Shown here: positions 10,756 through 13,234 of the stretch, piece by piece
How positions within the stretch are numbered: the stretch's first letter is position 1
How the letters are laid out: each line of letters begins with the position of its first letter
NCBI RefSeq assembly: GCF_018598185.1
Contig: NZ_JAHESC010000061.1
Coordinates: 1 to 33,772, forward strand
Length of the DNA stretch: 33,772 bases
Direction: 5' to 3'
Source: Dawidia soli
GTDB taxonomy: Bacteria; Bacteroidota; Bacteroidia; Cytophagales; Cyclobacteriaceae
Translations under genes and position numbers: made by a program
The notes under the pieces: generated by a model
The model's input: only the letters and a program-made list of their open reading frames with translations
Told to the model about the DNA's origin: nothing
Database searches by the model: none

Positions 10756-10786
10756 TTGCTATATTCTTAAGATGGTTCTATTTTTG
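10756..10786 (+). promoter_or_regulatory. Promoter of the EF-G paralogue leader
   Basis: TTG at 10756-10758, 20-base spacer, then TATTTTTG at 10779-10786, an exact TAnnTTTG. Transcription would begin near 10793. I see no good promoter between the last terminator (ending 11124) and the EF-G start at 11162, so this is the most likely promoter for the gene. Confidence 0.5.
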
Positions 10787-10810
10787 TGCTGTAGATAAAG
10801 AACGACAATC

Positions 10811-10903
10811 ATGTCAACTATTCTGAAATTCATTATTGCCGCGAGCCACATCATCTTGATAGTAGATGGGGAGGCACGGGTATTTCCGGATGAACGAGGA
10901 TAG
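10811..10903 (+). CDS. Putative leader peptide 1 (30 aa)
   Basis: ATG at 10811 opens a 30-residue frame (start MSTILKFIIA) that ends at TAG 10901-10903, 22 bases before terminator 1. The N-terminal ILKFI is repeated in the second short frame at 11007. Translation is not proven. The placement between promoter and terminator is that of an attenuator peptide. Confidence 0.35.
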   Translation: MSTILKFIIAASHIILIVDGEARVFPDERG

Positions 10904-10925
10904 TTACTACAATAGTATACTGCGA

Positions 10926-10955
10926 AAGCCCCTCCCATCCGGAGGGGCTTTTTTG
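10926..10955 (+). terminator. Leader terminator 1
   Basis: AAGCCCCTCC (10926-10935), five-base loop, GGAGGGGCTT (10941-10950), then a T-run. Perfect 10-bp stem. Confidence 0.85.
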
Positions 10956-11006
10956 TTGCTTCCCCACTATTGATCTCAATTATTATTCAATCACAGAACG
11001 CATGCG

Positions 11007-11063
11007 ATGAGACGTATCTTAAAATTTATAGTCGACAATACTGCAAATATGCCGGAGCGATAA
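11007..11063 (+). CDS. Putative leader peptide 2 (18 aa)
   Basis: ATG at 11007 opens an 18-residue frame beginning [10 protein letters not shown] and ending at TAA 11061-11063, 29 bases before terminator 2. It shares ILKFI-I/V with leader peptide 1, which suggests a duplicated unit. Its short length makes it low confidence by itself. Confidence 0.3.
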
Positions 11064-11092
11064 GGCTAGGGGGAAGATCTGTGCTTACCCGA

Positions 11093-11124
11093 AAGCCCCT
11101 TACTGCCGGTGAGGGGCTTTTTTG
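11093..11124 (+). terminator. Leader terminator 2
   Basis: AAGCCCCTTAC (11093-11103) pairs with GTGAGGGGCTT (11109-11119) with one T-G wobble, followed by TTTTTG. It ends 37 bases before the EF-G ATG, so full-length mRNA needs read-through. Confidence 0.85.
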
Positions 11125-11161
11125 TTGTGTTTTGACAATACTACAAAATGACAATTCTATT

Positions 11162-13234
11162 ATGAAACAACATACAAACATTCGGAATATAGGTATCATG
11201 GCGCACGTTGACGCCGGTAAGACGACCGTTACGGAGCGCATATTATATTATACGGGCATGATCCACAGGATGGGAAATATCGACGACGGTAATACCGTGA
11301 TGGATTCCGATCCGCAAGAATCGAAGCGGGGGATTACAATCTCTTCGGCGGCGATCACGACGTTCTGGTCGCGGGAGGGTACACAGTATCAGGTTAACTT
11401 GATCGATACACCAGGCCACGTTGATTTTACGGCTGAGGTAGAGCGTTCGCTGCGCGTACTGGATGGTGCGGTGGCTGTGTTTTGTGCGCGGTCGGGTGTA
11501 CAGCCTCAGTCAGAAACGGTGTGGCGGCAGGCTGATAAGTACGGTGTGCCGCGTATCATCCTGGTCAACAAGATGGACCGGCAAGGTGCTGACTTCCTGC
11601 GTGTAGTCCGGGAGATCGAATCACGGCTTCATACTGTGCCAGTGCCCGTTCAGTTGCCGCTCGGGGCCGAGGACACTTTTGTGGGCGTGATCGATTTGAT
11701 TGCTTTGAAGGCGCTGGTATGGAATGCTGACGACGGCAAGGCCTATACGACGATGGTCATACCGGAATCTCACCTCGCGGAAGCGATGCATTGGCGAACG
11801 TACTTGCTGGAGCAACTTTCGCTGGTGGACGAGTCCATCTTTGCGAAATATACAGCGGGGGAAGCAGTGAGCGAAAGCGAGATCCGTCAGGCGCTGCGCC
11901 GGGCTACGGTCGGGTTGCAGCTGGTGCCGGTGTTATGCGCGGCGGCGTATCGCAACCGTGGTGTGCAGCCTTTGCTGGATGCCGTCGTGTCGTATTTGCC
12001 GTCGCCGGCGGACAAGGCTGAGGTAAAGGGCGTTGTGCCGGAGAGCGACGACGTGGTTGTTCGCGAAACGTCCCTGGATGCTCCTGTGGCCGGGTTGGTC
12101 TTTAAGGTCGTGACCGACGATTATGTCGGCCGGTTGGCGATGGTGCGGATCTATGCCGGGGTGTTAACGAGTGGCGGTTATGTGGTGAATAGTCGTACGG
12201 GCCGACAGACGCGTGTAAGCCGGTTGTTGCGTGTGTTGTCTGACCGGTTCGAACCCGTCGATTCGCTCGATGCCGGTGACATCGGTGCGTTGGTCGGATT
12301 GAAAGATGTAAAGACGGGCGACTCGTTATCACATCCCGAGCATCCAGTTCAGCTTGAACGTATGGACTTTCCGGTGCCGGTGTTTGGGTATGCTATCGAG
12401 GCGAAGGCTTCGAAGGATACGGGCAGGCTCAGCGAGTCGCTGGCACGGTTGCTGGACGAAGATCCGACGCTGGCGTTGGAGGTCGATCCGCAGTCAGGTC
12501 AGACCATTCTGCGTGGTATGGGAGAGCTTCACCTGGAGGTTGTGCTGGAGAAACTGGCGACGACGTACGGTGTGGACGTCAACAAGGGTGAGCCGCAGAT
12601 TGCCTACCGCGAGGTGTTGACGCACGCGGTTATACATCGCGAGGTTTTTAAACGACAGAATGGCGGCAGTGGTAATTTTGCCGATATACAGTTTGAGCTA
12701 TCGCCTGCCGCGAATGGTGCAACGGGGCTCGAGTTTGTTAGTGACATCAAGGGTGGTGTTATTCCAAAGGAGTTTGTTGTTTCCGTACGAAGAGGTTTTG
12801 AGGAGGCGATGAAGAACGGTGCGCTGGCGGGGTATCCTGTCGAGTCTATGCGGGTGCGCCTGTTCGAGGGTAGTATACACGAGAAAGACTCGCATGCGCT
12901 GGATTTCGAAACAGCGGCCGTCATGGGCTTTAAAGAAGCTGCTCCGCAGGCGCGGCCGAAACTGATTGAACCGATCATGCTGGTCGATATCCTTACGCCG
13001 GAAGAGTTCACCGGCGCGGCAACGGGTGATTTGAACCGGCGACGGGGCGTTATCCTGGAGATCGGTACAAAGGGTGGCGCACAGTGGATACGGGCAGAGG
13101 TGCCATTGGCCGCTTTGTTTGGATATGTCACAGCGTTGCGTACGTTGTCTTCCGGCCGCGCATCAGCATCTTTGACGTTCAGTCGCTATCAGTTAGTGCC
13201 GGAGAATGTTTTGGAGAAGGTGCTGCCGGGTTAG
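11162..13234 (+). CDS. fusA: Elongation factor G paralogue
   Basis: 690 aa from the ATG at 11162; the frame is open further upstream, but that part runs through the leader terminator. All GTPase motifs are intact: AHVDAGKTT (residues 14-22), RGITI, DTPGH, NKMD and the C-terminal CAA/S-type G5. Domains II-V are present in order, and domain IV keeps the GSIHEKDS tip region, including the His used in translocation. Length matches canonical EF-G. Compared with Bacteroidota main EF-G (start MARDLxLTRNIGI, EHDGAATMDWM) it has a distinct start and [19 protein letters not shown], so it looks like a second EF-G rather than the housekeeping copy. It should act in ribosome translocation or recycling, perhaps under special conditions. 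It differs from the GTPase-deficient EF-G2 of Bacteroides. Ribosome-protection (Tet) homologues are an alternative, but the fit to EF-G is better. Regulation is likely through the leader at 10756-11124. Confidence 0.9.

Follow-up and report, generated by a model that had tools for sequence, protein, structure and literature searches.

Two short reading frames and two terminators in series before an extra elongation factor G gene of Dawidia soli suggest ribosome-mediated attenuation

Why should a gene for elongation factor G (EF-G) lie behind two short open reading frames (ORFs), each followed by an intrinsic terminator? The question is raised by a stretch of 33,772 nucleotides (nt) of Dawidia soli (NZ_JAHESC010000061.1, forward strand), here called the window, whose position numbers are used throughout. 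It is carried by a genome of 7.5 Mb in 122 contigs, which belongs to the Bacteroidota by its relatives. Between a 137-amino-acid (aa) ORF and the start codon of an EF-G paralogue, the window contains, in this order, a promoter-like TAnnTTTG site, ORF1, the terminator T1, ORF2 and the terminator T2 (Table 1). A preliminary description had named a promoter-like pair, frames of 30 and 18 codons, two terminators and EF-G, all of which were found again on re-reading of the sequence, and had interpreted them as transcription attenuation. We conclude that two ribosome-mediated transcription attenuators in series very probably control this reserve EF-G. Conservation of the leader, antiterminators at the ORF ends, compensatory change in the second unit and a modelled switch all support this interpretation. 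The similar layout kept in relatives suggests that the extra EF-G is made only when ribosomes are stuck.

The paralogue was patchily distributed in the genomes sampled. It was present in 2 of 7 genomes of the genus (identities were read here, rather than a strict E-value limit applied), in 6 of 196 of the family and in 1 of 395 of the phylum, the genome of D. soli itself. Around Chitinophaga sp. S165 it was found in 7 of 294 genomes of the family and in 43 of 79 of the genus. These counts include the own or centre genome, and divergent members such as L181 would escape the strict E-value limits.

The leader was seen at all 14 distinct paralogue loci that were read first. R1, an RNA model of unit 1 built from these 14 leaders, then matched unit 1 at each of 27 additional loci that had not gone into the model, with a weakest E-value of 1.6e-12. 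ORF1 and its surroundings were present at 41 of the 41 distinct paralogue loci fetched, a set that leaves out 12 more paralogue loci from the search of the Chitinophaga sp. S165 genus. When R1 was run blind to the gene, 3 of 341 genomes of the order had matches at E <= 1e-6, namely that of D. soli and those with loci L178 and L179. The latter two belong to other families, and their matches lie directly 5' of EF-G paralogues of 65% and 55% identity. Among 395 phylum genomes the window alone reached this limit, and among 20 chosen genomes it was reached by 14, exactly those carrying the paralogue. Comparison of positions indicated that all R1 matches at E <= 1e-6 precede an EF-G paralogue. Weak leaders may have been missed in the searches of more than 40 genomes, which used stricter filters. 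The preliminary description had made its interpretation depend on conservation in relatives; the leader turned up at every fetched locus, and two more were found through the leader alone. As only close relatives share neighbouring ORFs (14 loci, 1.5 to 3 kb of flank), the conserved unit consists of leader and EF-G.

Candidates for the same leader before other genes were rejected. Nine weak R1 matches occurred among the 20 chosen genomes (E 0.0026 to 0.078), and four of them were read: L130 and L134 follow a gene end, L133 was unclear, and L131 is a different attenuator. Four weak matches in the phylum sample (E 1e-4 to 1e-3) covered only model positions 72-142, the part with the tail and the terminator. 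Three of these follow the end of an open frame, and the fourth, L141, follows a short Cys/Met-rich ORF, as judged by eye.

T1 was found in 38 and T2 in 39 of the 41 leaders, and none lacked both. The gap between T2 and the EF-G start codon was 21-52 nt in the 39 leaders with T2; in the window it measures 40 nt from the T2 stem and 38 nt from the U run, which corrects the 37 bases given earlier. In the three leaders without T1 (L172, L173, L175), ORF1 ends right after its conserved core and the tail is gone too. The two without T2 (L165, L169) are also without an ATG-started ORF2, and L179 has a single unit. Each such coupled loss was probably one event in a lineage.

Is the ORF1 peptide itself conserved? 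Over the 41 leaders, divergence in the 13-residue core was 0.091 at the first, 0.077 at the second and 0.398 at the third codon position, and none of 20000 column permutations was as extreme (2 of 20000 for the first 14 leaders; the rows are related leaders, so that neither value is a clean probability). The pattern across codon positions indicates that the ORF1 core is under protein-level selection. Isoleucine occupies four of the 13 positions in at least 39 of 41 leaders. These residues, and the Ile/Leu-rich ORF2, would fit an attenuator of amino-acid starvation, in which Ile/Val/Leu-rich cores slow ribosomes when charged branched-chain tRNAs are scarce. We regard this explanation as improbable, because a fixed alanine (41 of 41) and a fixed serine (39 of 41) are equally conserved and would not be needed by composition alone, and because the target is a translation factor and not a biosynthetic gene. 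A leader of amino-acid biosynthesis would carry repeated codons for the amino acid that it regulates, ahead of the matching biosynthetic gene; the core here has fixed A, S, T, I and V positions, and the gene is EF-G.

The region 3' of the ORF1 core is conserved in a different manner. The frame of the tail (...CCCGGATATGAGAGG...) differs among relatives, ending as PDMRG-stop or PSRI-stop, and in three loci ORF1 ends right after the core, so that it is the RNA that is conserved in the tail. An RNA element within ORF1, S1, begins 15 nt past the first base of the V/I codon of the core in 14 of 14 leaders measured, and the 41 aligned rows agree. Of the 41 leaders, 39 had an ATG-started ORF2 (28 by script, 11 by eye). 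With its blocks anchored on [IL]K, the lysine codon was AAA in 38 of 38 anchored cases, and L177 is without such a lysine. The preliminary description had noted that ORF1 and ORF2 share ILKFI. This is real in the D. soli genome, but most relatives have IKAII or IRAVI in ORF1, so that it is not a conserved repeat.

Within 4 kb, both strands included, eight terminator-like sites were counted, compared with 4.2 (standard deviation 2.0) in shuffled sequences. This excess is weak on its own; it is conservation that carries the case. Pairing of the ORF ends with the terminators was examined in the first 14 leaders. In 11 of 14, at most 10 of 200 shuffles paired as well as the ORF1 end with T1, and within the Chitinophaga group the ORF1 tail preferred its cognate T1 (7 of 5000 permuted partners as good). 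For the ORF2 tail and T2, the cognate partner was better over all 14 leaders (4 of 5000 as good) and within the Chryseolinea group (63 of 5000). Pairing of S1 with the 5' arm of T1 was also considered as the main antiterminator and was rejected: the energies were good, but there was no cognate preference (4544 of 5000 permutations as good).

Unit 2 also provided evidence of compensatory change. In eight aligned leaders of the Chitinophaga group, 92.9% of the cells of antiterminator 2 were paired and three cells were changed on both sides. As many both-side changes arose in 20 of 500 shuffles when counted by cells; counted by pairs there were two (127 of 500). Motif extraction from 33 leaders of this group with T2 gave GGTAACG/CGTTACC 13 times, GGTAATG/CATTACC 11 times and GGTAATG/CGTTACC 3 times. 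At pair 6 of the helix, the 29 full-length cases comprised C-G 14 times, U-A 11 times and U-G 4 times, and the combination of C with A, which the motif permits, never occurred; other positions are partly fixed by the motif, three loci had no ORF-side match and one had a bulged partner. The pair-6 base in T2 also pairs with the 3' arm of T2, so that three positions change jointly. At two loci the ORF2 stop is UGA instead of UAA, together with a changed partner.

The effect of ribosome position was modelled co-transcriptionally, with the RNA ending before the 3' arm of the terminator, an assumed ribosome footprint of 12 nt ahead of the A site and an assumed stall site. With the ribosome at the ORF1 core, the modelled sequestration of the T1 5' arm averaged 0.82 and exceeded 0.5 in every one of the 14 leaders; a ribosome on the stop codon lowered the average to 0.09, and no leader then exceeded 0.5. 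For unit 2 the corresponding values were 0.69 (12 of 14) and 0.20 (1 of 14). Compared with synonymous recodings, the 14 leaders together performed better in sequestration (naive Fisher 9e-6 for unit 1, 0.007 for unit 2) and in energy (0.001 and 0.05). The locus combines features of ribosome-mediated transcription attenuators of the class of tet(M), ermK and hflXr: a short ORF between promoter and terminator, presumably translated and with a codon-phased core in ORF1, intrinsic terminators before the gene, and an exclusive antiterminator that depends on ribosome position in the model, with which the equilibrium fold disagrees in 7 of 14 leaders.

Several results weigh against tandem attenuation. 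In a ribosome scan of the full RNA at equilibrium, the 7 disagreeing leaders, the window included, kept T1 at 0.87 or more wherever the ribosome was placed. With T1 complete there is no equilibrium switch in these leaders, and a switch would have to be kinetic and act during transcription. Attenuators usually act during transcription. The window alone was no stronger than its synonymous recodings: in unit 1, 23 of 200 recodings had sequestration as high and 160 of 200 a minimum free energy (MFE) as low, and in unit 2 the counts were 99 of 200 and 125 of 200. For the ORF2 end and T2, only 6 of the 14 leaders had at most 10 of 200 shuffles that paired as well, and the window was not one of the six; within the Chitinophaga group alone 697 of 5000 permuted partners of the ORF2 tail were as good as the cognate T2. 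Over all 14 leaders, the ORF1 tail and T1 paired no better than permuted partners (1332 of 5000). ORF2 gave no signal of codon-phased selection in the first 14 leaders (3072 of 20000 permutations) or in the wider set (2220 of 20000). Finally, a leader without any ribosome should also antiterminate.

A TAnnTTTG site lies 5' of ORF1 in all 14 leaders examined, in 13 by a script with a loose criterion (TAnnTTTG with TTG or TTT at 17-23 nt) and in L097 by eye. The promoter consensus quoted in PMC7366714 is TAnnTTTG/TTTG. A sigma-70 scan gave nothing at this locus, and its model does not cover Bacteroidota promoters. The terminators might be two plain ones that insulate EF-G from upstream transcription, with a promoter of its own, not recognized by us, driving the gene. 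Intrinsic terminators are common and our promoter searches were simple motif scans, both of which leave some room for this idea. Nevertheless, from the end of unit 1 up to the EF-G start the motif scan found no TAnnTTTG in any of the 14 leaders, in agreement with the earlier remark that no promoter follows T2, and the short gap between T2 and the start codon adds to this. Insulation also would not account for the conserved ORF1 peptide and the covarying antiterminator 2, and we consider it very unlikely.

One pairing is not explained by simple attenuation. S1' is located 3' of the T1 U run, so that S1:S1' can form only once the transcript extends beyond T1. In 41 of 41 leaders, the three without T1 included, the predicted duplex had an energy of -16.4 kcal/mol or lower (no null was applied), and by eye the two strands were re-matched in L178 (GGGGAGGTAAAC with GTTTACCTCCCC) and L179 (GGTGGGG with CCCCACC). 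Covariation by count did not hold up as evidence: 94.6% of the cells were paired in 14 sequences, which was not above shuffled partners (196 of 500). In the permuted-duplex test, 122 of 5000 permutations were as good over all leaders and 3537 of 5000 within the Chitinophaga group. Our guess is that S1:S1' might keep ribosomes at the core once the mRNA is complete, or shield the finished mRNA. The pairing and the long conserved leader could also be taken to mean that the RNA directly binds a ligand or the EF-G protein, as in a riboswitch or autogenous control, with the short ORFs incidental. The codon phasing of ORF1 and the placement of the antiterminator strands on the ORF ends argue against this, as does the search of Rfam 15, which gave no window match at the gathering score and only sub-threshold matches, the top one in the leader being Phe_leader (25.4 versus 55 bits). 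Direct binding therefore seems to us a most improbable explanation.

Tandem attenuation would operate as follows. RNA polymerase would start at the TAnnTTTG promoter, and a ribosome would follow on ORF1. If it quickly reached the stop codon, it would mask the 5' strand of the antiterminator, formed by the ORF1 end; T1 would fold and transcription would end. A ribosome held at IRAVIAST[CRH]IV[LF]I would leave the ORF1 end free to capture the 5' arm of T1 while the 3' arm was still untranscribed, and the polymerase would pass. ORF2 and T2 would repeat the test, with an antiterminator over the ORF2 end and its stop codon, and the EF-G paralogue would be produced only after both gates were passed. 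Two serial gates would keep basal expression low. We infer translation of the leader ORFs and ribosome stalling on them; the stall would most likely be caused by a ribosome-binding inhibitor or a fault in translocation, and the paralogue would presumably help translation to continue.

What kind of EF-G is it? In a profile search, the window protein was a full-length EF-G (TIGR00484, 849.5 bits versus a cut-off of 659.4, residues 5-687). It remained below the cut-offs of EFG2_Bacteroid NF058620 (431.1 versus 1000 bits) and of the tetracycline ribosomal protection model NF012153 (365.3 versus 775 bits). It shares 53% identity with a second EF-G encoded by this genome. The paralogues form a clade of their own, separate from 19 canonical EF-Gs of Bacteroidota. 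Its support was 98/96 with 14 members and 100/100 with 16, the larger set including a long branch, L181, that calls for caution. The genome of Chryseolinea lacunae (L107) has a separate NF058620 member (1018.5 versus 1000 bits) beside a canonical EF-G and the paralogue. Plasmid relatives numbered 87 records, all of less than 60% identity. The EF-G match contains one in-frame stop each in L110, L172 and L177, that of L110 at codon 688, near the usual end.

The window protein retains NKMD and further motifs (17 residues not shown), which we take to be GTPase (G) motifs. Relative to the canonical set, H41D, A45T, M50D, E55K and T61S were each found in 14 of 14 paralogues, and W49 was replaced by S or T; these residues (41-61) presumably sit in the switch I region. 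In the two tip loops of domain IV, R503 is lost (S in 12, N in 1, A in 1), K505 is N or S, V575 is K, E or N, D578 is H or S, and S581D occurs in 14 of 14. Further differences lie elsewhere in the protein, and the two paralogues reached through their leaders share most of 12 checked sites. The domain IV tip loops of EF-G meet the decoding centre. A bolder and rather doubtful extension of the attenuation model may be offered here. The core could be a new nascent-chain arrest sensor, stalled by poisoned housekeeping EF-G or by a 30S inhibitor that blocks translocation. The spare EF-G, with its changed switch I and domain IV tips, might work where the main EF-G cannot, free the ribosomes stalled on its leader and thereby switch off its own production, and leader and factor would then be one transferable inducible module.

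The nearest systems in kind are the attenuators of tet(M) and hflXr, and the nearest gene in the phylum is fusA2. The Tet(M) ribosomal protection protein is EF-G-like. In Enterococcus faecalis, tet(M) lies behind a leader transcription attenuator (Su et al. 1992, as listed in the tabulated part of PMC5418344). The likeness, drawn by description and not by leader sequence, is that of a ribosome-factor gene behind a transcription attenuator; the present locus differs in its two serial units, its conserved leader-peptide core, its true EF-G (as judged by the NF012153 score) and its Bacteroidota host. In Listeria, hflXr/rli80 has a short ORF, an antiterminator and a terminator that govern a ribosome-acting factor, the signal being stalled ribosomes (PMC6310831, excerpted text). 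The first three elements and the kind of product recur here, whereas the RLR motif given in that excerpt is absent from the ORF1 core and the window peptides, the product is an EF-G paralogue and there are two units. The Bacteroides fusA2 gene for EF-G2 likewise is a second EF-G gene of Bacteroidota switched on in adverse conditions, its promoter being activated by BT4338 under carbon limitation (excerpt of PMC6989115); it belongs to a different EF-G family, as the NF058620 score indicates, and is under promoter control. Bacteroides tetQ, a ribosomal protection gene that is also leader-controlled, is listed under translation attenuation (Wang et al. 2005, same table of PMC5418344) and differs in that terminators are present here. 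Within the phylum, leader-peptide attenuation is mentioned for amino-acid operons of a flavobacterium (excerpt of PMC9723704) and, in the form of unvalidated short ORFs, for Bacteroides (excerpt of PMC7366714). Neither the leader nor the EF-G paralogue was the subject of any paper listed in searches of the open-licence literature.

Table 1. Features of the leader and EF-G gene in the window, and leaders of tRNA arrays in other genomes (last row)
Feature	Position	Strand	Description	Basis
Promoter-like pair	10756..10786	+	TTG (10756-10758), 20 nt, TATTTTTG (10779-10786); Bacteroidota type	sequence reading
ORF1	10811..10903	+	leader peptide MSTILKFIIAASHIILIVDGEARVFPDERG, 30 codons; ATG 10811, stop to 10903	
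ORF1 core	10823..10861	+	conserved peptide LKFIIAASHIILI, family form IRAVIAST[CRH]IV[LF]I; probable stall region	41/41 leaders
S1	10868..10875	+	GGGGAGGC within ORF1; able to pair with T1 5' arm or S1'	
Antiterminator strand 1	10884..10899	+	TTCCGGATGAACGAGG, ORF1 end; complementary to T1 5' arm and loop	
T1	10924..10954	+	intrinsic terminator with U run; stem 10924-10952	found in 38/41 leaders
S1'	10958..10965	+	GCTTCCCC, 3' of T1 U run; complementary to S1	
ORF2	11007..11063	+	18-codon leader peptide	ATG-started in 39/41 leaders
Antiterminator strand 2	11052..11065	+	CCGG and TAAGG; last codons of ORF2 and stop	
Antiterminator 2 partners in T2	11098-11102, 11106-11109	+	CCTTA and CCGG, respectively	by eye and computed pairing
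T2	11091..11123	+	intrinsic terminator with U run; stem 11091-11121	found in 39/41 leaders
EF-G paralogue	11162..13234	+	690 aa; ATG 11162	
tRNA-array leaders	L131:1484-1650 (= L142 in G163); L143; L144; L145; L146	- (L143)		

Other attenuators were met during the searches. In 5 of 196 genomes of the family, a tRNA array lies behind a leader ORF (for example MNKRHSHSSYRQPQPLQKDREDELCMPE) and its terminator; the search matched 9 of the 196, four of them by the terminator only. In L143 the array comprises Pro, Tyr, Gln, His, Arg, Ser and Ser. The six amino acids of these tRNAs are exactly those found in the leader stretch RHSHSSYRQPQP; agreement was partial in the remaining four leaders. This looks like a tRNA operon attenuated, in a ribosome-mediated manner, by scarcity of its own tRNAs, a type of self-attenuation for which the literature search gave no case. 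At L141 (about 1440-1560), a short Cys/Met-rich ORF, MKNQKTNITCMCMMKTALSGEG, recognized by eye, is followed by a terminator and looks like a separate leader-peptide attenuator in another family of Bacteroidota.

With a conserved, frame-dependent leader peptide that is wired to a third kind of EF-G twice in series, the locus amounts to a ready-made reporter of translation faults. As the paralogue occurs in so many genomes of the Chitinophaga sp. S165 genus (43 of 79), soil bacteria that can be cultured offer a direct way to ask what the inducer is and what the factor does. Should the factor protect against a ribosome inhibitor, the tetracycline protection proteins would be joined by a further resistance mechanism.

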